35,007 bases of DNA from Bacteroidota bacterium (GTDB lineage Bacteria > Bacteroidota > Ignavibacteria > UBA10030 > UBA6906). Made by a program: the position numbers and the translations under genes. Location: contig JAGDMK010000005.1 of assembly GCA_017860635.1 (NCBI GenBank), positions 1 to 35,007 of the forward strand, read 5' to 3'. Below the pieces are notes generated by a model. It saw nothing but the letters and a program-made list of their open reading frames with translations, was not told the origin of the DNA and made no database searches. Position 1 is the first letter of the stretch. Each line of letters starts with the position of its first letter. Of this stretch, positions 4,761-31,290 are shown piece after piece.

Positions 4761-4787
4761 CCAATCTGACAGGAGTCTGACCGCAGC

Positions 4788-5278: not shown

Positions 5279-5306
5279 GACGATCAACCCAACAGGGAGT
5301 ACACAT

Positions 5307-6083: not shown

Positions 6084-6108
6084 CGATCAGAGGAAAGAAC
6101 AACGAAGC

Positions 6109-6975: not shown

Positions 6976-6980
6976 CAACC

Positions 6981-7703
6981 ATGGCCAGCCCTGTGTACAA
7001 GCGGGTCCTGCTGAAGCTCAGCGGTGAGGCCCTCATGGGCTCGCAGCAGTTCGGCATCGATCCCGGAGTGCTGCGCCAGTATGCAGGAGAGATCAAAGCG
7101 GTCAGCGAGCTCGGCGTCCAGACCGGCATCGTGATCGGCGGCGGGAACATCTTTCGCGGTGTCGAAAACTCCACGAGCGGCATCCACAAGGCGACGGGCG
7201 ACCAGATGGGCATGCTGGCGACCATGATCAATGCGCTCGCCCTTCAGGCGACACTTGAGAACATGGGCATGGTGACCCGGTTGATGTCCGCCATCCGCAT
7301 GGATGTCATCGCCGAGCCGTTCGTCCGCCGGCGCGCCGTGCGCCATCTCGAGAAGGGACGCATTGTCATCTTCGGCGCAGGCACGGGGAGCCCGTACTTC
7401 ACCACCGACACTGCCGCCGTCCTGCGCGGAGTGGAGATCGAAGCAGATGCAGTGATCAAAGGGACCCGTGTGGACGGGGTCTACGACTCCGATCCCGAGC
7501 GCAATCCCGCGGCGTTCCGGTTCGAGACGATCACATTCCTGGATGTTCTGAAAAAGGACCTCAAGGTGATGGACCTGACCGCCATCACACTCTGCCGTGA
7601 AAACCATCTCCCCATTCTGGTATTCAATATGAACCGGCCGGGGAATTTCAAACGCTTGATCCTCGGCGAACCAGTCGGCACCCGCGTTAGCGAAACGCTC
7701 TGA
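6981..7703 (+). CDS. pyrH: Uridylate kinase
   Basis: PyrH phosphorylates UMP to UDP in pyrimidine nucleotide synthesis. The 240-residue product is an amino-acid-kinase-fold protein with [11 protein letters not shown] at the N terminus (phosphate binding), GGGNIFRG, the [14 protein letters not shown] helix, [17 protein letters not shown] and [17 protein letters not shown], all hallmarks of bacterial UMP kinase. It starts 5 nt after the tsf stop and is followed 32 nt later by frr, so it is co-transcribed with translation genes. UTP and GTP feedback is usual in the family, but no site is assigned here. Confidence 0.98.
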
Positions 7704-7735
7704 TGCCGGCAAGACGATAACGAAACGAGGAACAC

Positions 7736-8293
7736 ATGATCAAGACGATTCTGAAAGAGTGCGAAGACCGGATGCACAAAGCGTCAGAAGTTGTGCGCCA
7801 GGAACTCGCTAAAATCCGGACCGGCAAGGCCACCACCGCTCTGCTGGACAGCGTGAAAGTGGAATATTACGGGTCCATGATGGCGCTGAACCATCTGGCG
7901 AATGTCGGGGTGACCGATATTCACATGCTGACTGTTCAGCCATTTGACAAGAACGCCATGGATCCGATCATGAAGGCGATTCAGTCGGCAAACATCGGCT
8001 TGAATCCCATCAAGGATGCGGATATCATACGGGTCCCCATTCCTGCTCTGAACGAGGAACGCCGCCGCGAGCTTGTGAAGCTCACCAAGAAATTTGGCGA
8101 AGAGGGGAAGATTGCGATCCGGAATATCCGCCGCGATACGATCGAGCATCTGAAGAAATCTGAAAAGGCCGAGCATTTCTCGGAAGATGAACGGAAGCGG
8201 GGGGAGGGCGAGGTGCAGAAGATGACAGACAAGGGGATCAAGGACATCGATGCACTGCTGGCGCAGAAGGAGAAGGAGATCATGGAGGTGTAA
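7736..8293 (+). CDS. frr: Ribosome recycling factor
   Basis: RRF splits post-termination ribosomes together with EF-G. The 185-residue length is exactly that of the family. Recognisable stretches are ELAKIRTGKATTALLDSVKVEYYGS in the first third, the MLTVQPFDKNAM segment, IRVPIPALNEERRRELVK, and the helical C-terminal half with IRNIRRDTIEHLKK. It is the last gene of the string, and a perfect stem-loop terminator lies 25 nt after the stop. A likely ribosome-binding site, GAGGAA, precedes the ATG. Confidence 0.98.
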   Translation: MIKTILKECEDRMHKASEVVRQELAKIRTGKATTALLDSVKVEYYGSMMALNHLANVGVTDIHMLTVQPFDKNAMDPIMKAIQSANIGLNPIKDADIIRVPIPALNEERRRELVKLTKKFGEEGKIAIRNIRRDTIEHLKKSEKAEHFSEDERKRGEGEVQKMTDKGIKDIDALLAQKEKEIMEV

Positions 8294-8317
8294 ATACCTC
8301 TCAAAGGGTGTACACGG

Positions 8318-8351
8318 ACAGTCCGTCCTTTCCCGGGGACGGACTGTTTTT
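8318..8351 (+). terminator. Rho-independent terminator after frr
   Basis: ACAGTCCGTCC (8318-8328) and GGACGGACTGT (8337-8347) form a perfect 11-bp stem with an 8-nt loop. The stem runs directly into TTTTT followed by GTTT. It closes the ribosomal-protein/translation-factor transcript. Confidence 0.93.
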
Positions 8352-8421
8352 GTTTCTTTCTGCCCGCTCGTCGCCATTTCCATTGACCCGCCGCCCCGGC
8401 CCGCAATCGGCGTTCTGTGAC

Positions 8422-8577
8422 ACCGTCCGCCTTCTTTATACTACGGCGCCGTCCACCGTCATCGTCCTGCGACGCTGTCCGCCTTCTTTGTACTACGACG
8501 CCGTCCACCATCTTCCTCCCGGGGCACCGTCCGACTTCTTTGCACTACGGCGCCCCCTCCCCCTCCTCCCACCCGTT
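8422..8577. repeat. Three imperfect 52-bp tandem repeats, non-coding
   Basis: Within the 330-base gap between the frr terminator and the PspC gene, a unit beginning near ACCGTCCGCCTTCTTT and containing ACTACGGCGCCGTCCACC occurs three times. The TCCGCC/TCCGAC anchors at 8426, 8478 and 8530 give an exact 52-base period. Copies 1 and 2 differ at a few positions. Copy 3 decays into a C-rich tract. Because 52 is not a multiple of three, no reading frame is preserved and the overlapping open frames are not genes. The function is unknown; a variable-number repeat is likely. Confidence 0.85.
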
Positions 8578-8626
8578 GTCCCCCGCAAGGGATGCACACA
8601 CGGTCCACAGAGTGCAACATCGCCAT

Positions 8627-8643
8627 CACTTTTGCGTAAAGTG
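8627..8643. promoter_or_regulatory. Inverted repeat upstream of the PspC gene, possible operator
   Basis: CACTTT-tgcgt-AAAGTG is a 6-bp perfect inverted repeat about 40 nt before the PspC start. It could be an operator or part of a stress-inducible promoter for the two-gene envelope operon. No convincing -33/-7 pair was found beside it. A good ribosome-binding site, AAGGAGGA, lies just before the ATG at 8683. Confidence 0.35.
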
Positions 8644-8682
8644 TAAGGAGAAAGGCCGCTTTCGGGCGCGAAGGAGGATTCC

Positions 8683-9399
8683 ATGAGCACATCTGCTGAA
8701 ATCAGGCGTCTCACGAAGAGCCGCACCGACCGCATGATTGACGGCGTGTGCGGGGGCGTTGCAGCGTATTTCAACCTGGATCCGACCCTGGTCAGGATTG
8801 CCTGGGTACTGCTGACGATACTGGGAGGCTCAGGGATTCTCCTTTATATCGCCGCGATGATTCTGATGCCAAAGGACCCGGCTCCTCCCCCCAGCCAGAC
8901 GGCAGGGGCACCACCCGCGACAGCCAGCCGTTCGAACACGACATTCTGGGGCGTTCTCCTCGTGATAGTCGGGTTGTTCTGGTTGGCCGGGAATCTCGGT
9001 CTGCACTTCTGGCACAACTGGTGGGGACTTTCCATCGGAGTCGTGATCCCGGTCATCCTGATCCTAGCTGGCGTTGGCTTCCTGTTCGGAGGGCGGAATT
9101 CGTTGACGGTCTCCGCGGAGCACCCTGCGGCTGAACCAGGTGGTGAGACGGCGGCGCCGGCGGAACCTGCTGGCCCAGCCCGTCCGCGACTCGTCCGGAC
9201 GCGCCTGAACAAGAAGATTGCAGGAGTCTGCGGAGGCATCGGGGCGTATGTCCAGATCGATCCGGTGATCGTCCGCCTCCTCTTCGTCATGGCCGGATTC
9301 GCATCCATCGGAATCATGCTCATTCTGTATATCGTGCTCGCGATCGTGCTCCCGCTTGAACCTGAACAGACTCCCGCAGCCACTGTAGTCGCAGTGTAA
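8683..9399 (+). CDS. Membrane protein with two PspC domains
   Basis: The 238-residue protein contains the PspC fold twice. The first copy is at about residues 8-66 (SRTDRMIDGVCGGVAAYFNLDP, then a transmembrane helix). The second is at about 165-232 (RLNKKIAGVCGGIGAYVQIDP, then a transmembrane helix). Between them is a hydrophobic LiaF/DUF5668-like pair of helices (about 88-145) and an Ala/Pro/Glu-rich linker. PspC proteins are inner-membrane partners in phage-shock or envelope-stress responses, where they sense membrane damage or toxin-antitoxin-like stress. No PspA or PspB gene is adjacent. The next gene begins 10 nt downstream and encodes a related membrane protein. The doubled PspC looks like an internal duplication. 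Confidence 0.85.
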   Translation: MSTSAEIRRLTKSRTDRMIDGVCGGVAAYFNLDPTLVRIAWVLLTILGGSGILLYIAAMILMPKDPAPPPSQTAGAPPATASRSNTTFWGVLLVIVGLFWLAGNLGLHFWHNWWGLSIGVVIPVILILAGVGFLFGGRNSLTVSAEHPAAEPGGETAAPAEPAGPARPRLVRTRLNKKIAGVCGGIGAYVQIDPVIVRLLFVMAGFASIGIMLILYIVLAIVLPLEPEQTPAATVVAV

Positions 9400-9409
9400 G
9401 GAGAAACCC

Positions 9410-16157: not shown

Positions 16158-16188
16158 TTGCTTTTGACCGGGAGGCGTGTTACTTTTA
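16158..16188 (+). promoter_or_regulatory. Bacteroidota-type promoter of the nikR operon
   Basis: TTG (16158-16160) is followed after exactly 20 nt by TACTTTTA (16181-16188), matching TAnnTTTG at five of six defined positions. Transcription would begin near 16194, about 10 nt before the nikR ATG, leaving no room for a Shine-Dalgarno sequence. Confidence 0.6.
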
Positions 16189-16203
16189 GAAAAAACGTGC
16201 TAC
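16177..16203 (+). promoter_or_regulatory. Probable NikR operator: direct repeat over the promoter
   Basis: GTGTTAC (16177-16183) and GTGCTAC (16197-16203) are direct repeats separated by 13 nt. The first overlaps the -7 element; the second ends one base before the nikR ATG, so a bound protein would block RNA polymerase. NikR of E. coli uses an inverted repeat (GTATGA-N16-TCATAC). Direct repeats with a GTGTTAC half-site are, as I recall, reported for a Geobacter NikR, which needs checking. A weaker third half-site, CTGTTGC, lies at 16155-16161. Confidence 0.55.
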
Positions 16204-16204
16204 C

Positions 16205-16627
16205 ATGACGACCCAGCAGCTCACACGGTTTGGCGTGTCAATCGACGCGGATCTGATCAAGAAATTCGACCGATATATTCTTCATGCGGGCTATGGAACC
16301 AGGTCCGAAGCCATCCGAGACCTGATCCGAGCACGGCTTGTGGACGAGAAAGTCCATGACGCTGGCGCACAGGCGACCGGCGTGCTCTCGCTGGTGTACG
16401 ACCACCATAAGCGGGAACTCGAAGACCATCTCACCGGCCTGCAGCACGATCATCACGAGATGATCATCGCGACGACTCACGTCCATCTTGACCACCACAA
16501 CTGCCTGGAGGTGATTCTGCTCCGCGGCACTGTGGGCAAGATCAAGGATATCGGGGCTGCCCTGGCAAGCTTCAAGGGGGTGAAACACAGCAGTCTGAGC
16601 CTCACAGCGACCGACGAGCTGCGCTGA
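16205..16627 (+). CDS. nikR: Nickel-responsive transcriptional regulator
   Basis: The 140-residue protein has an N-terminal ribbon-helix-helix DNA-binding domain (about 5-45, LTRFGVSIDADLIKKFD... TRSEAIRDLIR). Its C-terminal ACT-like domain forms the tetramer and binds nickel. The high-affinity square-planar site is complete: H92, H94 and C100 in the motif HVHLDHHNC, with H81 from the partner subunit, equivalent to H87, H89, C95 and H76 of E. coli NikR. Nickel-bound NikR normally represses nickel uptake genes. It is the first gene of the operon, so autoregulation is likely, and a direct repeat over its promoter supports this. The receptor gene starts 65 nt downstream. Confidence 0.95.
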   Translation: MTTQQLTRFGVSIDADLIKKFDRYILHAGYGTRSEAIRDLIRARLVDEKVHDAGAQATGVLSLVYDHHKRELEDHLTGLQHDHHEMIIATTHVHLDHHNCLEVILLRGTVGKIKDIGAALASFKGVKHSSLSLTATDELR

Positions 16628-16692
16628 TGAGGTGCCGACGGAATGCACCGGCAGATCGTTCAGGTGAAACCGCCGCGCAAGGAATCCGTGCA

Positions 16693-18516
16693 ATGATGAA
16701 GCGTCTTCTCATGCTCGCAATGGTTCCGGTTTCCCTCCTCGCGCAAGCGGAGCGGGACACGGCACGAACCTATGTGCTGGATCCAGTGATCATCACGGGC
16801 ACGCACAGCGAAGCCCTTCGCAGTACCGTCCCCAATGCAGTCTCTGTCGTGAGCCGCGAGGATATCCGGCGCAGCGGTGAAACCTCCCTGCTGGCCGTGG
16901 TCAACAGACGGGTCCCCGGTGTGTTTCTGACGGAGCGGGGTGTGCTTGGGTACGGTGTGTCGACGGGAGCGGCTGGAGGCATCTCGATCCGCGGCGCCGG
17001 AGGCAGCCCGAACACGCAGGTGCTCGTGCTCACCGACGGCCGGCCGCATGTCATGGGACTCATGGGCCATCCGTTGCCGGACACGTATGTCACTGCCGGA
17101 GTGGAACGCGTGGAGGTCATTCGCGGTCCCGCGTCGCTCCTTCACGGCACGAATGCAATGGGTGGTGTCATCAACATCATCTCCGCGCGAACGCCCACGG
17201 GAGGAATCGGCGCAGACCTGTCTGCCTCTGCGGGAGGATTCGGGACGCAGAAGATCGAGGGCGGGATCGGCTATGGCACCAATGCTGGAGGCGTCTCCGT
17301 CCACGCGAGCCGCTATGTCACGGACGGTCACAGACCATACTCGTCGTTCCGGGTCAACGGAGGTTCCATTCGCGGTCACTATCAGCTTGGCCCCCGGTTC
17401 GTCCTCAGCGGGGATGCGAGCCTCTCAGGATTTAAGACTTATGATCCGGGTCCCGCGTCTGCTCCACGCATCGACAACTGGGTCGACATTGTCCGTGGCA
17501 GCTCCGGCTTTGCGCTCGAGAATCGAATGGAGAATCTTCAGGGGGCATTCAAAGGATTCTTCAATTTCGGGCGGCACGACATTTATGATGGATTCCACTC
17601 CGTTGACAACAGTACCGGACTCCTCCTGTACCAGGCAATGACTTTTGCCGGGGGGACCATCCTCACCGGTGGACTCGACTACAAACGGTACGGAGGGGTA
17701 GCGGAGAACCAGAAGTCACGTCTTGACTACGGCCGGCACTTCGTCTCCGAGTTCGGTGCATACGTCCTGCTCCAGCAGCCGCTGCTGGAGATGCTGACGC
17801 TTAGCGGCGGCCTGCGGCTGAACCACGGGAGCGTCTACGGCGACGAGATCCTTCCGCAGCTCGGCGTCGCGCTGCAGGCAAACACGGAGACCACCATCAA
17901 AGCCACCGTCGGCCGGGGATTCCGGAGTCCTACCATCCGGGAGCTCTATCTGTTTCCCGCTCCCACTCCCACGCTGGAACCCGAACGTATGTGGAACTAC
18001 GAAGTCAGCGTGCTCCGGTCGCTTGGGAACCGGTCGACACTCGAGCTGGCAGCATTCGTGGCAGACGGCAGCAATCTTATCCGGACGGAAGGGAAGTATC
18101 CAAACCTGGTCTACAGCAATTCCGGCGCCTTCGTGCACAGAGGCGTGGAATTCTCGGCAGTCGTCGGAGTTCTTGAACCCTTCACACTCGAAACCACCTA
18201 TGGATATCTGGATGCCGGCGAACAGACAATGGCCAACCCGAGACACAAGCTCTTCGTAGAAGGCCAGTATCGGGAAAAGTGGTGGTCGGTCAATGCCGGT
18301 GTCCAATATATCTCCGGACTGTACGGTGCCGATCGATCGACAAAGGCAATTACTGATTATGCCCTGCTGCAGGCCCGTCTGACTGTAACTCCGGTGGAGG
18401 GGCTCTCACTCTACATTGCCGGTGAAAATCTCACGGATGTGTCGTATCAGACGATGTGGGATTACCCGATGCCGGGGCGAACGATTCTGAGCGGTGTGCG
18501 ATGGGAGATGGAGTAA
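16693..18516 (+). CDS. TonB-dependent outer-membrane receptor (predicted nickel or metal-complex receptor)
   Basis: The 607-residue product has a signal peptide (MMKRLLMLAMVPVSLLAQA) and a TonB-box-like stretch (VLDPVIITGT). A plug domain covers about 40-165 (NAVSVVSREDIRRSG; ERVEVIRGPASLLHG; NAMGGVINII). The rest is a 22-strand-type barrel ending PGRTILSGVRWEME, with the TBDT end motif NLTDVSYQ. It is small for the family, close to vitamin-B12 receptor size. The plug apex carries a His/Met cluster, H119, M121, M124 and H126, that could bind metal. The ATG at 16693 follows AAGGA; an open frame 22 codons upstream is not signal-like. Its stop overlaps the next start (TAATG). Nickel as cargo is inferred from NikR and the ECF genes; a corrinoid or other chelate is the alternative. 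Confidence 0.88.
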   Translation: MMKRLLMLAMVPVSLLAQAERDTARTYVLDPVIITGTHSEALRSTVPNAVSVVSREDIRRSGETSLLAVVNRRVPGVFLTERGVLGYGVSTGAAGGISIRGAGGSPNTQVLVLTDGRPHVMGLMGHPLPDTYVTAGVERVEVIRGPASLLHGTNAMGGVINIISARTPTGGIGADLSASAGGFGTQKIEGGIGYGTNAGGVSVHASRYVTDGHRPYSSFRVNGGSIRGHYQLGPRFVLSGDASLSGFKTYDPGPASAPRIDNWVDIVRGSSGFALENRMENLQGAFKGFFNFGRHDIYDGFHSVDNSTGLLLYQAMTFAGGTILTGGLDYKRYGGVAENQKSRLDYGRHFVSEFGAYVLLQQPLLEMLTLSGGLRLNHGSVYGDEILPQLGVALQANTETTIKATVGRGFRSPTIRELYLFPAPTPTLEPERMWNYEVSVLRSLGNRSTLELAAFVADGSNLIRTEGKYPNLVYSNSGAFVHRGVEFSAVVGVLEPFTLETTYGYLDAGEQTMANPRHKLFVEGQYREKWWSVNAGVQYISGLYGADRSTKAITDYALLQARLTVTPVEGLSLYIAGENLTDVSYQTMWDYPMPGRTILSGVRWEME

Positions 18517-19055
18517 TGGCGCTCACAACGGAGACCGGTTTACGTTCCCCCGGACGGGAGCTTGCGTACGGCGGACTCTTCGGCGCAGCGGCGCTGGTCA
18601 TTCCCTTCTTCTTCCATCTCCTGCATCTCGGTCATATGTTCATGCCGATGTATATTCCGTTGATGGCTCTCCCTTTTTTCGTAAGGCCGGTTGTTGCGTC
18701 GCTGGTTGGTCTCATCGTCCCGGTCCTTTCGGGTCTCATGGCAGGGATGCCTCCGTTTTTCCCTCCGGTGGCTCCGGTGATGGCCATCGAACTTGCCTGC
18801 ATGGCAGGCCTTCTCGCGCATCTGCGGCAGCGCTGGCCGCTGACCCATATCCTGTTCCATCTCGTTCCCGTGCTGCTTCTCGGGAGGATCATCAACATCG
18901 GCTTGCTCTATGCTTCATCGCTCTGGCTTGAACTTCCTGCGGAGTTCCTCGCCGGGCTCTCGTTTATCACCGGATGGCCGGGCATCATCCTTATGGTCGT
19001 CGTGCTGCCCGCCATCGCCCGGTTGAACAGACGTGTGAGCGTGGCCCATGGATAG
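18516..19055 (+). CDS. ECF transporter S component of unassigned specificity
   Basis: The 179-residue membrane protein has six predicted helices, the size and pattern of substrate-binding S components of energy-coupling-factor transporters (ECF_trnsprt-like, with GHMFMPMYIP after helix 1 and GLMAGMPP after helix 3). It lacks the N-terminal Met-His-Ile metal hook of the CbiM/NikM cobalt and nickel components, so it is not a standard nickel S component. Instead it has a His/Met cluster at the end of helix 1: H34, H37, H40, M41, M43 and M45. The ATG shares one base with the receptor stop. The downstream methyltransferase gene overlaps its end by 8 bases. The ECF call rests on size, helices and the T and A genes beside it. 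Confidence 0.75.
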   Translation: MALTTETGLRSPGRELAYGGLFGAAALVIPFFFHLLHLGHMFMPMYIPLMALPFFVRPVVASLVGLIVPVLSGLMAGMPPFFPPVAPVMAIELACMAGLLAHLRQRWPLTHILFHLVPVLLLGRIINIGLLYASSLWLELPAEFLAGLSFITGWPGIILMVVVLPAIARLNRRVSVAHG

Positions 19056-19659
19056 CACTCAGAGCAGGCAGGACTACTTCAATGACCTCTCGGGTCGATG
19101 GGATGGTTTTACAGATGGCGAGCGCGTCCGGATGGCGCTCCGGAAGGCGTTGTCCACTGTATCGATCGACCAGGAAGAACACGTAGTGGACCTCGGTTGC
19201 GGGACGGGGAATCTGACCTCAGTGCTCACGGAGATCCTCGGACCAGGCGGGACAATCACGGCGGTGGACTTTTCGGGGGCGATGATTGAAGTCGCCCGCA
19301 ACAAAGTGCGCGACCCCCGCGTGCGATGGCTTGTCGCAGATGCTGCACGGCTTCCGCTGGAGGACGCCAGCATTGACAGGGTCATCTGCTTCAGTGCGTG
19401 GCCGCATTTCCCCGACCCATCAGCCGCAGCCCGTGAACTTTTCCGGATCCTCAGGCCGGGGGGGATGCTTCACATCCTGCACATCAATTCGCGCGAATCC
19501 ATTAACGCTGTCCATGGCGGCGTCGGGGGCGCGATCGGCCACGATGTTCTCCCATCTGCACGTGACCTTGCTGGTGTGCTGAGAGCATGCGGATTCGATG
19601 TGTGCGAGGAGGTTGATACGGACACGGCATACAGGGTTGCCGGGGAGAAGGTCGTATGA
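19048..19659 (+). CDS. Class I SAM-dependent methyltransferase in the ECF operon
   Basis: The 203-residue cytoplasmic enzyme has the UbiE/Methyltransf_11-type Rossmann fold. Motif I is VVDLGCGTGNL (residues 46-56), the acidic ribose-binding residue is D74 (TAVDFSGAM), VADAARLPLED is motif II, and FRILRPGGMLHI is the motif III region. The C-terminal part is histidine-rich (H142, H145, H156, H165) and has C181 and C186, which could coordinate metal. It overlaps the S component by 8 bases and the T component by 4, so it is made in step with the transporter. Its methyl acceptor is unknown. It could act on the imported ligand, for example to trap, release or break down a chelator. Confidence 0.85.
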   Translation: MDSTQSRQDYFNDLSGRWDGFTDGERVRMALRKALSTVSIDQEEHVVDLGCGTGNLTSVLTEILGPGGTITAVDFSGAMIEVARNKVRDPRVRWLVADAARLPLEDASIDRVICFSAWPHFPDPSAAARELFRILRPGGMLHILHINSRESINAVHGGVGGAIGHDVLPSARDLAGVLRACGFDVCEEVDTDTAYRVAGEKVV

Positions 19660-20324
19660 CCGTCCCACACGCTCATCCGGCTCATCCGCTGGCTCGTCTG
19701 TGTGGAGGTGCCATACTCCTCTGCGGGTGTCTTGTCGCGGACCACACGACTGTGGCGGGACTCATCGTGCTTCCTGCCGTGGCTTTGAGTGCCCTTCTTC
19801 TCCAGCGAACCCGGCTCACATCGATGGCCAGACTGATGCTGGCAGGTACCTTGTTTTATCTCCCGGTGGTTGTGCTTGCATCACCCGGCGTCGCTCTCAA
19901 AGGTCTCTCTGCCGCGATTGTCGGGGTGGCCACGGTATCCTCTCTCGGCCCGCAGGCGCTGCATGATGCGATCATTCGCATGCCGCTTCCCGCGCTGGTG
20001 CGGTTGCTGGTTCTCCAGATGGTGCATCAGGCAGAAGTATTGCGCCGTGAATCGGTGCGCATCCATCAGGCCCTGGTCGTACGGGGCGGGGTGGATGGCA
20101 TCCGGGGTATCTGGGAATTCGCAAAGGCGATTCCCGTCGTGTGGCTCCCGCGCGTCCTGTTCCGGGCTGATCGAGTAGGCATGGCCATGGACATGCGGGG
20201 ATATGGAGCCATCGTGCCAGCGGCACGCTCAGTGCGCTGGAGGGGAATCGACTTCGGCGTGGTCTTCGGTTCGCTCGGGGTCGCCGTTGCCGCAGTGTGG
20301 TTCTCTGCCCTGGTCCTGATATGA
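19656..20324 (+). CDS. ECF transporter T component (CbiQ/EcfT-like)
   Basis: The 222-residue inner-membrane protein couples the ATPase to the S component. After several N-terminal helices it has a cytoplasmic coupling helix region (about 105-175). That region contains RRESVRIHQALVVRGG and RADRVGMAMDMRGYG, the latter the family's second Ala-Arg-Gly-type motif with Met in place of Ala. The N terminus is histidine-rich (HAHPAH, residues 5-10). The start overlaps the methyltransferase stop as ATGA, and the stop overlaps the ATPase start as ATGA, so coupling is tight. The sequence is closer to CbiQ-type dedicated T components than to shared EcfT. Confidence 0.87.
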   Translation: MTVPHAHPAHPLARLCGGAILLCGCLVADHTTVAGLIVLPAVALSALLLQRTRLTSMARLMLAGTLFYLPVVVLASPGVALKGLSAAIVGVATVSSLGPQALHDAIIRMPLPALVRLLVLQMVHQAEVLRRESVRIHQALVVRGGVDGIRGIWEFAKAIPVVWLPRVLFRADRVGMAMDMRGYGAIVPAARSVRWRGIDFGVVFGSLGVAVAAVWFSALVLI

Positions 20325-21007
20325 CGGACCTTCCGATCGTTCTGCGCTTCGACGACGTTTCCGTCCGGCACAGCGGCAGCCACGTGGACGCGATTCACGG
20401 GTGTTCGCTGGAGATGAAGGAGGGCGAGCATGTTGCACTCCTCGGCCTGAATGGATCGGGGAAAACCAGCCTCCTGATGGCTGCGGCGGGTCTGCTCCCG
20501 CACGAAGGGACTATCGATGTCGATGGGATACGGCTGGAGAATTCCTCACTGGCGGAGGTCCGGCGGAGAATCGGATTTCTCTTCTCCACCCCCGAAGATC
20601 AGCTGCTGTTCCCCAGGGTGTTGGATGATGTGGCGTTCAGCCTGACGACGCAGGGAAGGAAGGAAGGCGAAGCCAGGGAGGAATCGGAGCGGATGCTGGA
20701 GGCGATGGGGGTCGGCGCTCTGGCGAACGCCGCGCCGTATGAACTCTCCTTCGGGCAGAAGATGCGCGTAGCGCTTTCCGGTGCCCTTGTGCACAAACCG
20801 CGGCTGCTTCTTCTCGACGAGCCATCCGGGGCTCTGGATCCGCCCGGAAAGCGGGCCCTTGCCGCGCTGTTCGCTGCGCATCCCTCAGCAATGCTGATCG
20901 CGACTCACGACCTTGTGTTTGCCGAGAGGTGCTGCGACCGGTTCATTCTGCTGGAAGCAGGGAAGGTCGTCAGGGATACCGTGCAGATAGGCGAGATCAC
21001 TCTCTAA
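20321..21007 (+). CDS. ECF transporter ATP-binding protein (CbiO/EcfA-like)
   Basis: The 228-residue ABC ATPase has Walker A GLNGSGKTS (residues 42-50), the Q-loop FSTPEDQLLFP typical of CbiO/EcfA, signature LSFGQKMRVAL (the second Gly of LSGGQ replaced by Phe), Walker B LLLLDEPSGALDP and the H-loop ATHD. The ATG at 20321 overlaps the T-component stop as ATGA; an ATG eight codons upstream lies within that gene. Only one ATPase gene is present, so a homodimer is expected, as in nickel and cobalt ECF systems. It is the last gene of the nikR operon. No T-rich terminator follows directly; palindromes and repeats fill the next 230 bases. Confidence 0.92.
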   Translation: MTDLPIVLRFDDVSVRHSGSHVDAIHGCSLEMKEGEHVALLGLNGSGKTSLLMAAAGLLPHEGTIDVDGIRLENSSLAEVRRRIGFLFSTPEDQLLFPRVLDDVAFSLTTQGRKEGEAREESERMLEAMGVGALANAAPYELSFGQKMRVALSGALVHKPRLLLLDEPSGALDPPGKRALAALFAAHPSAMLIATHDLVFAERCCDRFILLEAGKVVRDTVQIGEITL

Positions 21008-23548: not shown

Positions 23549-23837
23549 GGAGGCTCCAGGATGATGAATGGTGTGCGACATGGTACGGAGTTCCCGGAGC
23601 AGAATCAACTGAAGAGCGGCTGTCAGGACTGTTTTGCAATTGTCGGCGGGTATTCTTACAATACACAACCGTGCACAGTCCCCCCGTGCTGCGACGCTCC
23701 GGGGGCAACGACTCCGTTCCGATCCTGAACACCGAAGCAGTCTGACGGGCATGTACCGGAACGGCCGGAGCATACACATGCACATCGTCTGTCATCGGGC
23801 TGGCACGCAACCGCCGACCAATCACCGGAACTTTCCC
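23549..23837. promoter_or_regulatory. Divergent intergenic region with candidate rhaA promoter
   Basis: This 289-base gap separates the chalcone-isomerase-like gene from rhaA. On the plus strand TTTTG (TTG at 23634-23636) is followed after 20 nt by TACAATAC (from 23657). That second element overlaps an inverted repeat, GTATT-N5-AATAC (23650-23664), which could be an operator. On the minus strand a weaker TTG-N20-TACCATGT precedes the other gene. An open frame covering the region towards rhaA is not coding. Confidence in each element is low. Confidence 0.3.
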
Positions 23838-25109
23838 ATGAACACGGCAGAACCACTTGAATCAGCATTTGCACGCGCACGCGACCAGTATGCGGCGCTC
23901 GGCGTCGAGGTAGATCAGGCCCTCGCCTCACTTCGCTCCATCGCATTGTCCCTGCATTGCTGGCAGGGCGACGATGTGCACGGTTTTGAGCGCAAGCCCG
24001 ACGCGGCATCCTCGGGCGGGATCCAGGTGACAGGTGCATATCCAGGGGCGGCCAGGACGATCGACGAATTGCGCGGCGACCTTCAGAAGGCATACAGCCT
24101 GATTCCGGGATCCCACCGGTTGAACCTCCACGCGATGTACGGGGATTTCGGCTCGCGGGTTGTCGATCGGGATCAGATCGAACCGGCACACTTTCTGAGC
24201 TGGATGGACTGGTGCCGCGAGCACCACCTGGGCCTGGATTTCAACGCGACGTGCTTCGGGCATCCCCGGGCGGATACCGGGTTCACGCTCAGCAGTACGG
24301 ACACGGGCATCCGGAATTTCTGGATCGAGCATGTCCGCCGGTGCAGGGAGATCGGTGCTGTCATCGGAAAGACTCTGGGTACGGCATGCGTGCATAATCT
24401 CTGGATTCCCGACGGCGCAAAAGACATCACCGTGCGCCGCCATCTGCATCGCACGATCCTGAAGGAGTCGCTGGACGCAATCTACGCACGTCCCTACGAC
24501 AAGGACGACCTGCGGGATGCCGTGGAGAGCAAGTTGTTTGGCATCGGGAGCGAGTCGTTCGTCGTAGGGTCCCATGAGTTCTACATGGGCTATGCCCTGG
24601 CTCACCACCTGATGCTCTGCCTGGATCTTGGCCATTTCCATCCCACCGAATCCGTCGCGGACAAGGTCTCTGCGTTGCTGCACTACACGGACGACCTCCT
24701 CCTCCATGTGAGCAGGGGCGTTCGCTGGGACAGCGACCACGTGGTGATCATGAATGATGAAATAACAACGCTTGCGGAAGAGATCGTAAGGGCGGACGCG
24801 CTGGGCCGTGTCCGCATCGCCCTGGATTTCTTCGACGGCAGCATGAACCGCATCGGGGCCTGGGTCCTCGGATCACGATCCACGCTCAAAGCCCTCCTGC
24901 GCGCGTTGCTTGAACCCCGGGAACGGCTCACTGCACTTGAAGCGGAAGGCAATCTGTTCGCGCGCATGGCGCTTCTGGAGGATCTGAAGACCATGCCTGT
25001 CGGCGTCGTCTGGGATTACTACTGTTCCCGGGAAGACGTGCCGACGGGCGAGGCCCTGCGCGAAGCGATCCACTCGTACGAACAACAGGTACTGGCGCGC
25101 CGTGGATAA
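23838..25109 (+). CDS. rhaA: L-rhamnose isomerase
   Basis: RhaA converts L-rhamnose to L-rhamnulose, the first step of rhamnose breakdown. The 423-residue product matches the family throughout. Near the N terminus it has SLHCWQGDDVHGFE. The metal-binding TIM-barrel residues lie in SHEFYMGYALAHH, CLDLGHFHPTE and IALDFFDGSMNRIGAW, and the end of the protein contains WDYYCSREDVP. The frame is open upstream to 23634, but MNTAEPLESAFARARDQYAALGV matches the usual start. No rhamnulokinase, aldolase, mutarotase or rhamnose transporter is nearby, so the rest of the pathway is elsewhere, or the enzyme serves another aldose. The next gene overlaps its stop by 8 bases. Confidence 0.96.
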   Translation: MNTAEPLESAFARARDQYAALGVEVDQALASLRSIALSLHCWQGDDVHGFERKPDAASSGGIQVTGAYPGAARTIDELRGDLQKAYSLIPGSHRLNLHAMYGDFGSRVVDRDQIEPAHFLSWMDWCREHHLGLDFNATCFGHPRADTGFTLSSTDTGIRNFWIEHVRRCREIGAVIGKTLGTACVHNLWIPDGAKDITVRRHLHRTILKESLDAIYARPYDKDDLRDAVESKLFGIGSESFVVGSHEFYMGYALAHHLMLCLDLGHFHPTESVADKVSALLHYTDDLLLHVSRGVRWDSDHVVIMNDEITTLAEEIVRADALGRVRIALDFFDGSMNRIGAWVLGSRSTLKALLRALLEPRERLTALEAEGNLFARMALLEDLKTMPVGVVWDYYCSREDVPTGEALREAIHSYEQQVLARRG

Positions 25110-25734
25110 CGTGAACGGCGAATCGCAGTGGCTGATCTGGGCCAGGGAACTGCAGGCGCTCGCCCAGACGGGTCTGACCTTTGCCGTGGGCGAGTATGAT
25201 CTCGCGCGCTACAGACGGTTGATGGAGCTTGCTGCAGAGATCACCGCGCACTCGACGGGAGCTTCCGTGGATGCGCTCACCGAGGATTTCATGCAGCAAC
25301 CCGGATACGCAACCCCGAAAGTGGATGTTCGGGGCGCCGTGGTGCGCGAAAACAGCATTCTGCTGGTTCAGGAGCGTGCAGACGGCCGGTGGTGCATGCC
25401 GGGCGGATGGGCCGATGTGGGTGAGCTTCCTTCGGTGATGGTGGCTCGCGAAGTGCTTGAGGAAAGCGGACTCGTGGTCCGCCCGCGCAAGGTGGTCGGC
25501 GTGTTTGACGCGAACCGGAGCGGCATCCCTCAGGCATTCTATCATGCATATAAAGTAGTGTTTCTCTGTGATGTGCTCGGGGGAGAGATCCGCGGGAGCG
25601 ATGAGACACTTGACGCGCGGTTCTTCCCGTTTACCAGTATACCACAGCTCTCATCCGCGCGGACAAACGAACGGCACCTGGCTGAGATCCAGGCCCATCT
25701 TGCGGATCCGGCCAGACCCACGGCGTTTGACTAA
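25102..25734 (+). CDS. Nudix hydrolase with N-terminal Nudix_N domain
   Basis: The 210-residue enzyme has an N-terminal helical segment (about 8-68, WLIWARELQALAQTGLTF... YDLARYRRLMELA) typical of Nudix_N-type ADP-ribose/nucleoside-diphosphate hydrolases. A complete Nudix box follows at residues 102-124 (GWADVGE, seven residues, REVLEESGL), which places magnesium for cleavage of a diphosphate bond. Substrate is unknown; ADP-ribose or a nucleotide sugar is plausible. Two GTG starts are possible: 25102, which overlaps the rhaA stop by 8 bases, and 25111, which avoids the overlap. Neither has a strong ribosome-binding site. The overlap suggests co-expression with RhaA. Confidence 0.88.
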   Translation: MDNVNGESQWLIWARELQALAQTGLTFAVGEYDLARYRRLMELAAEITAHSTGASVDALTEDFMQQPGYATPKVDVRGAVVRENSILLVQERADGRWCMPGGWADVGELPSVMVAREVLEESGLVVRPRKVVGVFDANRSGIPQAFYHAYKVVFLCDVLGGEIRGSDETLDARFFPFTSIPQLSSARTNERHLAEIQAHLADPARPTAFD

Positions 25735-25783
25735 TGTCAAGACACGAGATCTGCGCACATCGAGTGATCGGAGACAGTCCCGC

Positions 25784-27004
25784 ATGACACATCTGTTGCT
25801 CCTCGTACCCACGCTCCTCCTCGCACAGGGCCTCTCATTCGACGGACTGCTCCGGCAGATCGGACCGATGCCTCCCGCACAGCGCACCGCTCATGTCGAG
25901 ACGTTCCTCGCCGGACGAGCACTTCCTCTCGTGGAGTCGGACACTCTGCTCACATTTGTGTGGTATGGTGTCGCGGACAGCGTGTTCGTCAACGGGGCAC
26001 TGCAGGACGGATGGAGCAAACCCGCACGCATGGATCAGATTCGGTGTGCGGCAACAGAATCCGGACCGTCGATCTTCTACAAGCGCTATACCGTTCCCCG
26101 CGATGCGCGGCTGGAATACCAATTGGTCGTCAACGGGAGGTCGATGCTCGATCCGGGCAATGTCCGCCGGACGGCGAACGGGGACTTCTCAAACTCGGAG
26201 GCGGTCATGCCCGGGTTTGTCGCAACGCACTGGACAGCAGTCCGCGCCGAAGTGCCTCACGGAACGCTGGACACGCTGCTGTTCACTCCGCGTGACACCA
26301 CGTTGCGGGCAAGGAGGGTGATAGTGTATGTTCCCCCCGGGGTGAGCCGCGTCGATCACGCTCGAACGCCTGCGAAACAGCCCGGGGACATTGTCTCAGC
26401 CGATCTGCCCAGCATATATATCCATGACGGCGAGTCGGCGCTCCGGTACATGGCTGTGACCACCATTCTGGAGAATATGCTCGCCGCCCGCGAACTTCCC
26501 CCGGTTGTTGCAGTGTTTGTCCCGCCTGTTGAGCGAAGCGCGGAGTATGCCGGCGCCAAGCTCACCCCATTCATCAATGCCCTTGCCGACGAGCTGGTGC
26601 CGATGATTGAACAGCGCTATCCGGTTGCACCTGTCTCAGCGAAGCGCGGCACAATGGGCATCTCACACGGCGGTCATGTGGCCATTGCAGCAGGGCTTGC
26701 ACGTCCGGATGTATTCGGCCTATGTTCCGGACAGTCTCCCACCATCACCCCCATACTTTCCGTGCTGTTGGATGTCCGCAAACGCTCAGCGCCGTTTCCG
26801 TCCGGATTCCGTCTCTATCAGCAATGCGGCCTCTTCGACATCGTGTCGGAGCAGTACCGTTTCCTGACATTGAACCGTGAGTTCAGCAGGCAGGTTGATG
26901 CGCTCCCCATCCAGCATCTCTACGCTGAAACCAGCGACGGGCACGATTGGCCAAGCTGGCGGGAACGAGTCCCGGAGATTCTTCGTTTCTTCTTCATGCA
27001 CTAA
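25784..27004 (+). CDS. Secreted alpha/beta-hydrolase, esterase D/enterochelin-esterase-like
   Basis: The 406-residue protein has a short signal peptide (MTHLLLLVPTLLLAQG). An N-terminal immunoglobulin-like E-set domain (about 50-145) includes VWYGVADSVFVNGAL and IFYKRYTVPRDARLEYQLVVNG. The esterase domain (about 155-406) follows. The probable catalytic triad is S294 in GISHGG, D352 in CGLFD and H387 in SDGHDW. This E-set plus esterase layout is that of Fes-type siderophore esterases and of feruloyl/acetyl-xylan-type esterases. The substrate here is unknown. The frame is open to 25568 but overlaps the Nudix gene; the ATG at 25784 has GGAG 10 nt upstream. M64 and DUF2911 genes follow with small gaps. 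Confidence 0.85.
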   Translation: MTHLLLLVPTLLLAQGLSFDGLLRQIGPMPPAQRTAHVETFLAGRALPLVESDTLLTFVWYGVADSVFVNGALQDGWSKPARMDQIRCAATESGPSIFYKRYTVPRDARLEYQLVVNGRSMLDPGNVRRTANGDFSNSEAVMPGFVATHWTAVRAEVPHGTLDTLLFTPRDTTLRARRVIVYVPPGVSRVDHARTPAKQPGDIVSADLPSIYIHDGESALRYMAVTTILENMLAARELPPVVAVFVPPVERSAEYAGAKLTPFINALADELVPMIEQRYPVAPVSAKRGTMGISHGGHVAIAAGLARPDVFGLCSGQSPTITPILSVLLDVRKRSAPFPSGFRLYQQCGLFDIVSEQYRFLTLNREFSRQVDALPIQHLYAETSDGHDWPSWRERVPEILRFFFMH

Positions 27005-27021
27005 CACCAGAGGAGAGATAC

Positions 27022-28476
27022 ATGCGGTTGCGAATATTCTGTCTTGCCGGCCTTGTCGGCTTCGGTCTGCTGTGGATGACTTCCGCGGGTTCGGTGGCAG
27101 CAGCGCAGGCTGCGGATGCCTACTCCCGGTACTTCGGCGCGTCAACCATGCGTGTCGACTACTACCACACAGGGACGAAAGGCGAGGAGCGGTTCAGTCT
27201 CGATTGCGTCTACGAGGAGGGGCCGTGGCCCGGATCGAAGACGCAGCTCCTGGACACGCTGAACCTTGGGGAGTTTCTTGTTCGCGTCTACGACCGGGCG
27301 ACGAACGTGCTCATTTACTCACGCGGGTTCTCATCGGTCTTCAATGAGTGGCAGACGACGGACGAAGCAGCAGCGGGGGTGTACCGGACATTTGGAGAGA
27401 CGGTGCGTTTTCCATTTCCCCTCCGTGCGGTTCAGGTAAGCATCTCGCGGCGGGACAAGCGGCTGGTATTCCGGGAATTGTTCTCGACCGTCATTGATCC
27501 GGTTGACCCCACGGTGGTCCGCCGTGAAAAGCGTCCGGCTCCCTTTGCCGTGAAAGCGCTGATGCAGAACGGTCCGTCAACGCAGAAGGTGGACATCCTC
27601 ATCCTCGGAGACGGCTACAGCAAGGCCGATCTGGAGAAATTCCGGAAAGACGCCGCGCATTTCAATGAGGTGATGTTCGGCACGCGCCCCTTCGCGCAGA
27701 GGAAGAAGGACTTCAACGTGTGGACGATAGAGGTCGTGTCCGATGAATCGGGAATTGACGTGCCGGACAAGAACGTCTGGAAATCGAATGCGCTTGGTTG
27801 CGCGTATAATACGTTCGGGTCTCCCCGGTATGCCCTGACCACGGAAAACCGGACCCTGCGCGATATCGCAGCGGCGGCCCCATATGACCATCTCTGTATC
27901 ATCGTCAACGACACACGGTACGGCGGGGGAGGGATCTTCAACCAGTATACGACAACGTACACGAAGGAAGAAAAGGACAGCCAGAAGTGGCAGATGGATT
28001 ATGTGTACGTGCACGAGTTCGGTCATTCGTTCGGCGGGCTGGGAGACGAGTACTACAATGCGGAAACCGGATACAACGAGTTCTATCCCGCCGGCGTCGA
28101 GCCGTGGGAGCCGAACATCACCGCACTGCTGGATAAGCAGAACGTGAAGTGGAAAGAGTTTCTCACTCCCGGGATTGCCGTCCCTACGGTGTGGCAGAAA
28201 GCGGCATTCGACAGCATCGAGACACTCCGGGGAAAACTGGACCGGCTGGCTCCCGACTACTACGAAAAGCGGGAACCGCTCTACCGCGCATCATCGGTGA
28301 TCCTTCGTTCACCGGGGTTCGCCGGAAAGGTAGGAGTCTTCGAGGGAGCAGGGTACGTGTCACGCGGCCTCTATCGCCCATCCCTTGATTGCAGAATGTT
28401 CTCATTGAGTCTCGTGGACTTTGACCCCGTGTGCAGCGCGGCGATTGAACGTGTAATTGACCAGTACTCACGATAG
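27022..28476 (+). CDS. Secreted M64-family (IgA-peptidase-like) metallopeptidase
   Basis: The 484-residue product has a signal peptide (about 1-30) and an N-terminal beta domain typical of M64 proteins (about 35-170, with YYHTGTKGEERFSLD). The catalytic domain opens with VDILILGDGYSKADLEKFRKD. Its zinc motif is HEFGH at 331-335, followed by SFGGLGDEYY, with D342 the likely third ligand. Family members include the IgA peptidase of Clostridium ramosum, but most are uncharacterised and common in Bacteroidota, so an antibody-cleaving role should not be assumed. The ATG at 27022 has GAGGAGAG upstream and is 17 nt after the esterase stop. The 25 in-frame codons before it overlap that gene. Confidence 0.9.
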   Translation: MRLRIFCLAGLVGFGLLWMTSAGSVAAAQAADAYSRYFGASTMRVDYYHTGTKGEERFSLDCVYEEGPWPGSKTQLLDTLNLGEFLVRVYDRATNVLIYSRGFSSVFNEWQTTDEAAAGVYRTFGETVRFPFPLRAVQVSISRRDKRLVFRELFSTVIDPVDPTVVRREKRPAPFAVKALMQNGPSTQKVDILILGDGYSKADLEKFRKDAAHFNEVMFGTRPFAQRKKDFNVWTIEVVSDESGIDVPDKNVWKSNALGCAYNTFGSPRYALTTENRTLRDIAAAAPYDHLCIIVNDTRYGGGGIFNQYTTTYTKEEKDSQKWQMDYVYVHEFGHSFGGLGDEYYNAETGYNEFYPAGVEPWEPNITALLDKQNVKWKEFLTPGIAVPTVWQKAAFDSIETLRGKLDRLAPDYYEKREPLYRASSVILRSPGFAGKVGVFEGAGYVSRGLYRPSLDCRMFSLSLVDFDPVCSAAIERVIDQYSR

Positions 28477-28485
28477 GAGGCACGT

Positions 28486-29313
28486 ATGAAACGCATTGTG
28501 GCAATTGTCCTTGCTCTGGCTGTGTATGCCGGTTCAGTATGGTCTCAGACCACTCCCCGCGTTCCGCGGCTGAGTCAGGGGGCCAAGGTGTCTCAGTTTG
28601 TCGGGCTGAGTGAAGTCTCTGTGACCTATCACCGGCCGGGCGTCAAAGGACGCCAGATCTGGGGAAACGTGGTGAAGTACAACGAGGCCTGGCGTGCCGG
28701 TGCCAACGAGCCGACGCTCCTCACCCTGAGTGATGAAGTGACGATCGCGGGGAAGAAGATCGGTGCAGGGACCTACCGACTGGTGGTCTTCCCGTACCAG
28801 ACGGGTGACTGGAAGTTCATCCTCAACAGTGAAGTCAAGAACTGGGGGAGCATCTACGATCCCAAATTCGACACTCTCACAGTTGCAGTGAAACCCGAAG
28901 CGGGACCACACGAAGAGTGGATGACGTTCACATTCAAGGATCTCACGCCGACGTCCGCCCGTCTCGAGCTGGCCTGGGAGAAGGTGCGCCTTTCTCTGCC
29001 GATGGAATTCAATACGCTGTCAAAGATTCAGGCATCGGTTGGCAACTGGCAGATGCTCGCCAGCGCAGCGAAGTTTGCTGCGGACAACGGCATGTATCTC
29101 ACCGAAGGGCTCGGGTGGGCCGACCGGGCGATCGCACTGGAGAAGAACCCCCGCACGCTCCAGGTGAAGGCCGAAGTGCTGGCGAAGATGGGGAAGAATG
29201 CGGACGCGATTGCGCTGGGAGAAGAGGCAGTGAAACTTGCCAAAGCAAAGGATCCCAAAGCCAATACGGGTCAGCTGGATGCACTCATCAATGAGTGGAA
29301 AGGGAAGAAGTAA
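28486..29313 (+). CDS. DUF2911 domain protein with TPR-like tail
   Basis: The 275-residue exported protein has a signal peptide ending near VWSQ. The DUF2911 domain is at about 24-170, with the family hallmarks VSVTYHRPGVKGRQIWG, WRAGANEPT, IAGKKIGAGTYRL and FILNSE. The C-terminal 100 residues are helical and resemble one or two tetratricopeptide units (LGWADRAIALEKNPRTLQVKAEVLAKMGK). DUF2911 is frequent in Bacteroidota and its function is unknown. It starts 9 nt after the M64 stop with GGAGG before the ATG, so the two are co-transcribed. Confidence 0.88.
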   Translation: MKRIVAIVLALAVYAGSVWSQTTPRVPRLSQGAKVSQFVGLSEVSVTYHRPGVKGRQIWGNVVKYNEAWRAGANEPTLLTLSDEVTIAGKKIGAGTYRLVVFPYQTGDWKFILNSEVKNWGSIYDPKFDTLTVAVKPEAGPHEEWMTFTFKDLTPTSARLELAWEKVRLSLPMEFNTLSKIQASVGNWQMLASAAKFAADNGMYLTEGLGWADRAIALEKNPRTLQVKAEVLAKMGKNADAIALGEEAVKLAKAKDPKANTGQLDALINEWKGKK

Positions 29314-29398
29314 TAAATCAGCGGCAAGTCGCAGGCATGGCTGGCACATCCCAGTCCGCTTCCTGTGACCTCATCGCTCTTGCGTGAACACACATCGA

Positions 29399-29431
29399 CC
29401 GGAGGCACAGTCTGAAGGGACTGGCCTCCGG
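29399..29431. terminator. Hairpin in the convergent gap after the DUF2911 gene
   Basis: CCGGAGGCACAGTC (29399-29412) pairs with GACTGGCCTCCGG (29419-29431) as a 13-bp stem with one bulged base and a 6-nt loop. It lies between the DUF2911 gene and the minus-strand outer-membrane-type gene, where a bidirectional terminator is expected. There is no T-run. The rest of 29314-29574 shows nothing recognisable. Confidence 0.45.
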
Positions 29432-29574
29432 CTACCGATTTCAGTTTCGGTTTCCACCATCTCCTTCTAAAGCCAAACCCACGGCAATAGACTCATTCCA
29501 TCTGCCATACCGCAGGTCGTGCATTCGAAATGCGCTGCGGCCTTCAGTGATTGGCGTGGCCTGGTCGTGAAACG

Positions 29575-31290
29575 CTAATCCCCGAACCGCGGATTCACGA
29601 TGTTGCTGTAAATGGATCCGAACGTGAAGCTGATGCCAATTCCTCCATAGTAGTAGTAACTCGTTTCGAGTTCCTTCCGGTGCAAGAGAACCTGATCAGG
29701 AGTCGCTCCAGATTTCGGAAGACCCAGCTGATCGTGGACAATCGAGACTGTTCCGGCGGTCCAGAGGGAAAAGCCCTCCCAGAGCCTGATGGAAAGCTTG
29801 CTCTCAAACTCAATCCGGTGCTTGGTGAGGTCGTGCAGATACTGCGATACTTCTGCCTGGATATGGATGGTTCCCCAGAGCTCCTTCAAGTCAAGTCCGA
29901 TCGAAAGCGAGTGCAAATAGAGTGACTCGTTCGTGCGGTCGTATATCGTTTCCTCAAGATACGACGCGAAGATGTAGCCCAGGCGATACGTGAGAGGGAA
30001 TTGTCGGCGGCTGTGTTCCGAATAGGGAAAGAGGTCAAACTCCACTGCAGGCGCCACATGTGCCCACAGCTTCGAATTGTCGTACGTAGAGGAAGAGAGC
30101 TCGCCGAAGAGGCCTACTGACCAGTGTTCGCCTAATCCAATGGCGAACAACGAAGACAGCTTTTCGCTTCGTGCAACACTAAGGATGGTGGAACCGGAAA
30201 AGTCAAACCTGTTCTCCGCGTAGCTCATGGAATAGCCCAGTCTGATTTTCAGGAGCTGTGTCACGCGGCTGCCTGAGACAGAACCTCCGAATTTCATGTC
30301 CTTGCTTGATTTCTCCCCCTGCAATTCGGCGCTGATATCGGTGTTGAATACCCAGCTGTCCCACGGATCGACGCGTGGAGCAGCGGGCGCATTCCAATCA
30401 GGGAAGTCGATCCTGGCGTGGAGGCCGAGAGGTGTACGTGCGAGGTATCGCGTGAGCCCCAGCTTGGCGGTGGTTGTGAGTTTCTGTCGGATCAACTCGT
30501 CCGTGTCTGATGCCAGTGTGTAGAACCTGAGAGTATCGACCAGTCCGGAAAACCCCTTGTAGCCGACGAAGTTCAAGGAGTATTCTTTTCCCCCGTTGCC
30601 TGCCGCTTTCGTGGTGACGAGCATGTGCACATCTGCCAGCTCCTTGTCCCGCACGTAGTGTACAAACGTCAGTTCTGTTTTCAGAAAATCCTCATCACAT
30701 CCGTTCTTGCAGTCCACAAAGAGCCTTGGAATCCATGGAGGGGTCGTGGCGGAAGCGGTGGCTGGGGTTGGCCGTATAGAAGCTGCCTTCGGACCGCGAG
30801 GCTGGTGCTGATTCGGCGGAGTGTTGCTATCCAGGATTGCGGTTATTCCGAGGCGCAACGTGAGATTCTCCGCATCGTACACACCGACAATTCCGAACGC
30901 AGAGCGAAGGACCGGAAGCAATGATTCGAGCGGCACAAAGAAGTTGTCATTTACAGAGATCACACTTGCCGAGAGCCGGTGGTCTGTCGATCCGTTGCCC
31001 GCAACTATAGCGACAGCGACGGCGGCTCGATCAGAGAGAATCAGATACCGGTCGGGGGTGCCGAGAACAGCTCTGCGGGCCGCGAGATCGTGCGAAAGAG
31101 GGAGAGAGCACACTTCTGCAATGTCGGTAAGCGAGGCGTAGGCAATACCGTTGGACTGAAAGATCCCGATCACACTGGTGCGGCCAGGATTTGCCTCGAA
31201 TATGATCCTCACAGTGTTGCCTTGTCCGAATCCGCCCACCGAGACGAACAGTACCAAATGCAGTAGTGAGAGGAGTTTCCTCCCCGGCAT
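29575..31290 (-). CDS. Outer-membrane-type protein with copper-amine-oxidase-N-like domain, function unknown
   Basis: The 571-residue product starts with a signal peptide (MPGRKLLSLLHLVLFVSVGGFGQG). Residues about 30-150 resemble the copper-amine-oxidase N-terminal/stalk-type domain found in many exported proteins (IAYASLTDIAEVC... NDNFFVPLESLLPVLRSAFG). A Pro/Ala/Thr linker follows. Next is a conserved-looking segment, RLFVDCKNGCDEDFLKTEL, then FVHYVRDKELADVHMLVTT, which I associate with unnamed Bacteroidota proteins. The remaining 330 residues alternate like a beta-barrel (for example YRLGYIFASYLEETIY) and the end is NPRFGD. C-x4-C in DCKNGC may form a disulfide. The ATG at 31290 is preferred over an open frame 22 codons longer because it starts the signal peptide. 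Confidence 0.7.
   Translation of the reverse strand: MPGRKLLSLLHLVLFVSVGGFGQGNTVRIIFEANPGRTSVIGIFQSNGIAYASLTDIAEVCSLPLSHDLAARRAVLGTPDRYLILSDRAAVAVAIVAGNGSTDHRLSASVISVNDNFFVPLESLLPVLRSAFGIVGVYDAENLTLRLGITAILDSNTPPNQHQPRGPKAASIRPTPATASATTPPWIPRLFVDCKNGCDEDFLKTELTFVHYVRDKELADVHMLVTTKAAGNGGKEYSLNFVGYKGFSGLVDTLRFYTLASDTDELIRQKLTTTAKLGLTRYLARTPLGLHARIDFPDWNAPAAPRVDPWDSWVFNTDISAELQGEKSSKDMKFGGSVSGSRVTQLLKIRLGYSMSYAENRFDFSGSTILSVARSEKLSSLFAIGLGEHWSVGLFGELSSSTYDNSKLWAHVAPAVEFDLFPYSEHSRRQFPLTYRLGYIFASYLEETIYDRTNESLYLHSLSIGLDLKELWGTIHIQAEVSQYLHDLTKHRIEFESKLSIRLWEGFSLWTAGTVSIVHDQLGLPKSGATPDQVLLHRKELETSYYYYGGIGISFTFGSIYSNIVNPRFGD

Follow-up and report, generated by a model that had tools for sequence, protein, structure and literature searches.

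A putative NikR-controlled nickel importer of the ECF type, with an S component distinct from NikM and an associated methyltransferase, in a Bacteroidota genome

Nickel importers of the energy-coupling factor (ECF) type have been described as NikMNQO and NikKMLQO (PMC545781, PMC2667541), and for NikR, the repressor controlling them, the operator consensus GTGTTAC-[N13/14]-GTAACAC was published for delta-proteobacteria, reversed half-sites being noted there too (PMC545781). At the outer membrane, FrpB4 and FecA3 of Helicobacter are cited as NikR-regulated TonB receptors (PMC11247825). The stretch of DNA analysed here (the window, 35,007 nucleotides; Bacteroidota bacterium, GCA_017860635.1, contig JAGDMK010000005.1, positions 1 to 35,007) stems from a metagenome-assembled genome (MAG) of 3.9 Mb that is 88% complete and has Ignavibacteria-like Bacteroidota as its relatives. 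On its + strand lies a set of six genes encoding NikR, a TonB-dependent receptor, an ECF S component, an S-adenosylmethionine (SAM) methyltransferase, an ECF T component and an ECF ATPase:

16177..16203, + strand: predicted NikR operator, GTGTTAC-N13-GTGCTAC with direct-repeat half-sites, 13/14 against the published consensus half-sites
16205..16627, + strand: NikR, nickel-responsive repressor (PF08753, 6.6e-31; PF01402; NF003381, 169 bits, cut-off 105)
16693..18516 (open reading frame from 16627), + strand: TonB-dependent outer-membrane receptor (PF07715, Plug; PF00593, TonB barrel)
18516..19055, + strand: ECF S component (AlphaFold2 fold, Foldseek, alignment of 66 sequences, conservation over 81 loci)
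19048..19659, + strand: class I SAM methyltransferase (PF08241, Methyltransf_11, 1.4e-25)
19656..20324, + strand: ECF T component, EcfT/CbiQ-like (PF02361, 22.3 bits, below the cut-off of 25; two X-R-G motifs)
20321..21007, + strand: ECF ATPase (PF00005, ABC_tran, 9.5e-27)

The operon is best read as encoding a nickel importer of the ECF type in which the S component is not a NikM and a methyltransferase is encoded alongside; no description of a NikR–receptor–ECF–methyltransferase operon was found in the open PMC literature. Nickel is very probably the cargo, since NikR operators, the lack of riboswitches beside the operon, an exchange with NikMQO in a related genome and the company of NikR or HypA genes kept by S–methyltransferase pairs in Bacillota all point to it; as far as regulation and gene context can indicate a substrate, this assignment is well supported. 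The open reading frames agree with an earlier reading of the sequence without database searches (the sequence-only reading), according to which the six genes overlap from the receptor onward by 1 (receptor/S), 8 (S/methyltransferase), 4 (methyltransferase/T) and 4 bases (T/ATPase), and no gene for a periplasmic binding protein is present in the operon.

The NikR of the window consists of a ribbon-helix-helix and a NikR_C domain and possesses the four high-affinity nickel ligands H81, H92, H94 and C100, which are invariant in 29/29 operon-linked NikR sequences. The predicted operator ends one base ahead of the NikR start codon, and identical half-sites, GTGTTAC-N13-GTGCTAC, are found at the equivalent position in another genome of the same genus (G001, locus L139). 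In a de novo search of operon upstream regions, GTGTTAC with a 13-base spacer was the commonest perfect inverted repeat, and this dyad, GTGTTAC-N13-GTAACAC, is the NikR consensus derived from delta-proteobacteria (PMC545781). Operators were scored with both spacings and every half-site orientation at a threshold of 12/14; orientation alters the middle three bases only, because each half-site has the form GTNNNAC. The threshold was reached by 29 of 110 operon upstream regions, as against 0.45 expected from shuffles. Counted per locus, such a site was present in 28/70, compared with 9/403 among the other genes of the same loci, and several of these nine are the operon's own intergenic region viewed from a divergent or leading gene. 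Where lipoprotein genes lead the operon, the site precedes them in 7/15 loci, six of which are newly counted, bringing the total to 34/70. The predicted operator and the enrichment across the family thus favour the earlier suggestion that NikR places the operon under nickel control.

The genomic context is consistent with this regulation. Among 60 genomes of the same order, NikR is encoded in 5/5 of those with the S component and in 14/55 of those without it (hypergeometric chance about 0.002), and 29 loci, spread over about ten phyla, have a NikR gene with the operon; of the 47 loci that extend 3.5 kb or more to either side, 18 contain it within 5 kb. Neither the window nor any of 28 related loci has an Rfam riboswitch at gathering score next to the operon, although a cobalamin riboswitch is present in 45 of 50 such genomes. 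The sequence-only reading had named a vitamin carrier as the outcome that would overturn it, with the S component grouping in a vitamin family and its relatives controlled by the riboswitch of that vitamin; the S-family profile matches no PDB chain, no named NCBIfam S family fits, and no riboswitch was detected in these loci.

A direct comparison is offered by a genome of the same order (G029, locus L156), in which NikR and the receptor are followed by a cupin, NikM, a CbiQ-type T component and an ATPase. Its NikM (PF01891, 1.9e-61) shows MHIPDGFLD after a short leader, its operator GTGTTAC-N13-GTGCTAC stands just before NikR and matches that of the window, and its receptor shares 42% identity over 612 residues with the window receptor and falls in the same clade (support 100/98). 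S–methyltransferase–T–ATPase and NikM–NikQ–NikO thus occupy the same place behind a homologous NikR–receptor pair. Together with the NikR genes and operators across phyla, this exchange, the most telling of the findings, lends support to the alternative nickel or nickel-chelate importer that had been proposed from the sequence. Other NikR arrangements occur in the same order as well. In L155 (1258-3787), NikR, receptor and methyltransferase genes are present without S, T and ATPase, and matches to [NiFe] hydrogenase are located some 0.9 kb ahead of NikR; the methyltransferase is thus able to persist in the absence of this S component. In L159 (3606-8808), NikR with an operator of 13/14 is accompanied by a divergent TonB receptor and by a binding-protein/FecCD/ATPase importer, a third inner-membrane module under NikR, the receptor being unrelated at family level to that of the window. 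In several relatives (L160, 2201-3439; also L146, L148, L149, L151 and L152), the gene after NikR encodes a conserved protein of some 243 amino acids with an ACFDTYLFL...MVYP motif, and in L160 a PF00374 hydrogenase gene lies nearby.

The S component was modelled with a pLDDT of 92 (helices 12-35, 46-54, 58-76, 85-106, 112-137, 142-152 and 154-178) and has the ordinary six-helix ECF-S fold. Good Foldseek matches were solely to S components of the RibU/ThiT/BioY/FolT kind, RibU and ThiT being the best; for RibU, ThiT and BioY the probability was about 1 with TM values of 0.57-0.65 and modest E-values of 0.004-0.3. The match to the Pfam family ECF_trnsprt amounts to 18.9 bits, under the cut-off of 30.7, and the identities of the S and T components rest on fold and context because this match and that of the T component to CbiQ fall below the Pfam cut-offs. 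No PDB chain was matched by the S-family profile at E-values up to 10, and none of the named NCBIfam S families fits the group of the window S component. The N-terminus reads MALTTE, relatives beginning with MKxREL or similar, and PF01891 (CbiM/NikM) was matched neither by the window protein nor by 66 family members, one of which has a weak NCBIfam CbiM match; the protein was thus rightly set apart from CbiM/NikM in the sequence-only reading for want of a Met-His-Ile hook. A four-sequence profile found 146 relatives encoded in a species-genome collection, of which 80 were fetched. Plasmid records contained no homolog of the S component. Over 81 loci, H34 (81/81), M78, M89 and R124 are invariant, and M45 (80/81) and E92 (77/81) nearly so. 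From the usual topology with a cytoplasmic N-terminus, H34, M45, M78, M89 and E92 of the model would lie at the outer face, on the substrate side.

Conservation also bears on the His/Met clusters that had been noted as possible metal sites, most of which are to be rejected. At helix 1 of the S component, H34 and M45 hold, but H37, H40, M41 and M43 vary, and the HAHPAH motif at the N-terminus of the T component is private to the window sequence. In the receptor, where these residue numbers count from a start at 16693, H126 (within GHPxPD) is 81% conserved, but H119, M121 and M124 are not; H213 (within DGHR) is likewise 81% conserved, and H126 and H213 are the better candidates for metal residues. 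The first of these sites is instead occupied by Cys and His in the receptors of Aminicenantes. The longest receptor reading frame begins at 16627 with a one-base overlap with NikR; the start at 16693 (MMKRLLMLAMVPVSLLAQA, signal peptide) is the more likely one. In another genome of the genus (G002, L003/L007) the receptor gene seems to be devoid of its plug-encoding part, leaving a barrel of 355-362 amino acids, through either deletion or assembly error.

The remaining subunits are those of a regular ECF module. The two X-R-G coupling motifs of the T component are VRG and MRG, with Arg143 and Arg181-Gly182 conserved across 59 relatives. The ATPase contains Walker A (GLNGSGKT), signature (LSFGQ) and Walker B (LLLLDEP) motifs and matches both TIGR04521 and TIGR04520 at about 1e-42, under their cut-offs. 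A dedicated T component and ATPase are hence encoded beside the S component, as in group I ECF systems. The methyltransferase retains the SAM motif DLGCGTG and D74 and should therefore bind SAM; H120, H145 and H156 are invariant from the Bacteroidota of the window through Bacillota, and nothing above cut-off was present among the NCBIfam matches listed.

The order receptor–S–methyltransferase–T–ATPase recurs in loci of about ten phyla, relatives of the S component coming from Myxococcota, Acidobacteriota, Verrucomicrobiota, Kiritimatiellota, Aminicenantota, Gemmatimonadota, Spirochaetes, Bacillota and others. In 65/76 loci the gene right after S encodes the methyltransferase, and in 49/71 the one right before S encodes the receptor, the T component being present in 57/69 and the ATPase in 60/69. 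Among 150 sampled genomes of the phylum to which the Bacillota relative L086 belongs, 44 encode the wider S family; in 20 Bacillota loci that were read, S is followed by the methyltransferase in eight and NikR precedes in three. These Bacillota pairs come without receptor, T component or ATPase, and S genes may stand alone in this way in ECF systems sharing one T–ATPase module. In one Bacillota locus (L129) the pair is preceded by a gene for HypA (PF01155, 2.9e-29), the nickel chaperone of hydrogenase and urease. The methyltransferase is tied to S without a receptor in Bacillota and to the NikR–receptor pair without S in L155, which suggests action on the cargo rather than a role as a part of the transporter.

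Many related operons are led by genes of two lipoproteins, X (about 170 amino acids; PPWTIC, NHQGPCPPEGV) and Y (ending in PGPYGH), as in L041 (5125-5640 and 5647-6039) and in L008, L009, L010, L011, L012, L016, L019, L033, L035, L039, L047, L048, L052 and L059. Those members of X and Y that were scanned have no Pfam match above cut-off, and the model of X (pLDDT 88) found no confident match to a solved fold. In two Aminicenantes loci (L065, 4341-5988; L071, 4240-5881), genes for a ZnuA-like binding protein and an ABC-3 permease, assigned by Pfam on L065, stand directly upstream of the receptor operon. The outer parts of the window itself are ordinary, with genes for a 2-oxoacid dehydrogenase, lipoyl synthase, ribosomal protein S2, an amino acid kinase family member, RRF and PspC at 1-9400, and for L-rhamnose isomerase, a NUDIX protein, an esterase, an M64 peptidase, and a UDP-sugar dehydrogenase and epimerase at 23634-34997.

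When nickel is scarce, NikR would leave the operator at 16177-16203 and the operon would be transcribed. The receptor would pass nickel, most probably bound in a small Ni(II) chelate, into the periplasm, where the S component may capture it at its outer face through the candidate residues H34, M45, M78, M89, E92 and R124, and the T–ATPase module would drive it into the cytoplasm at the expense of ATP. The cargo would accordingly be a chelate rather than the bare ion. In anaerobic heme uptake, a SAM-dependent enzyme opens the imported porphyrin and frees its iron; by analogy, the methyltransferase might modify the imported ligand and so release the nickel, a step that is regarded as rather doubtful. 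In the full proposal, a separate non-NikM S lineage captures a nickel chelate and an obligate methyltransferase modifies the chelator and frees the metal. This would amount to a complete nickelophore route, from receptor to cytoplasm, that dispenses with a classical periplasmic binding protein; it would exist in about ten phyla, and its S–methyltransferase core in Bacillota as well. The proposal is put forward tentatively, at somewhat less than even chances.

Several observations weigh against a nickel importer of this kind. In half of the operons the stretch examined holds no strong NikR site, and for many S genes of Bacillota both NikR and a site are absent; two Bacillota loci, read by eye, show a tungstate-binding-like gene upstream of S. 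To our knowledge, no role in nickel uptake has been established for a methyltransferase. The sequence-only reading had advised a search for the gene order together with NikR sites and nickel enzymes. Order and sites do recur, but [NiFe] hydrogenase is not discriminating: PF00374 is matched in 44 of the 53 genomes with the S component and also in 44 of 60 relatives in general, so that its co-occurrence had to be rejected as proof of a nickel cargo. A search for nickel-enzyme motifs in the flanks of related loci gave no credible match. Finally, the nearest solved receptor by sequence is BtuB, and the best NCBIfam score of the receptor is to TonB-B12, far under the cut-off.

Import of free Ni(II), with H34 and the conserved Met and Glu residues of the S component binding the bare ion and the methyltransferase serving another nickel-linked step, is the strongest of the alternatives and still rather unlikely. 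Bare-ion transport is the rule for NikM, and the invariant or nearly invariant H34, M78, M89, M45 and E92 at the outer helix ends would suit it; however, the S component folds like those for vitamins, the invariant R124 suits a carboxylate, and the presence of a dedicated receptor and a methyltransferase suggests that the ligand is organic. It is improbable that the methyltransferase makes a simple nickelophore which is exported and re-imported by the receptor and ECF module, since, although it is conserved together with S in both Gram-negatives and Bacillota, and with the NikR–receptor pair alone in L155, no further gene for biosynthesis or export turns up repeatedly among the operons, and the Bacillota pairs have no receptor. 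Import of a corrinoid or other cobalt compound, with NikR merely reporting metal status, would agree with the BtuB and TonB-B12 matches, with the usual role of ECF S components as vitamin carriers and with a TonB-dependent receptor as fit for bulky cargo, but is very improbable: what stands beside the operon are NikR operators and not cobalamin riboswitches, and the exchange with a NikR-controlled NikMQO and the HypA neighbour speak against it too.

If nickel is the cargo, as is preferred here, an orphan ECF S family of many uncultured anaerobic lineages gains a probable substrate, and a further import route is added to the surveyed NikABCDE, NikMNQO, NicO and HupE types. CbiM/NikM was found in 12, NicO in six and HupE in two of the 53 genomes with the S component, and 28 hydrogenase-positive ones, the source genome included, have none of these three; the survey covered these importer types and PF00374, in MAGs that are incomplete. 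The route would explain how many hydrogenase-bearing genomes without those types may obtain nickel, and it raises the question why nickel uptake and a SAM methyltransferase should go together.

Among known systems, the operon resembles NikMNQO and NikKMLQO in its composition of one S component, one T component and one ATPase, in NikR control through an operator of the same consensus, and in its place behind a NikR–receptor pair homologous to that of L156; it differs in an S component of RibU/ThiT-like fold without the MHI hook or PF01891, in the absence of NikN, NikK and NikL, and in the additional methyltransferase. With FrpB4 and FecA3 it has in common a TonB-dependent receptor under NikR, whereas the window receptor shares one operon with an inner-membrane importer. 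The FecCD-type importer of L159 (cf. NiuBDE of H. pylori, PMC7840056) is likewise an alternative inner-membrane module after NikR and a TonB-dependent receptor, but includes a periplasmic binding protein and a FecCD permease. With RibU, ThiT, BioY and FolT the S component shares the six-helix fold (Foldseek probability up to 1.00), while its profile matches none of the solved chains and its predicted operator and gene context are of the nickel type.

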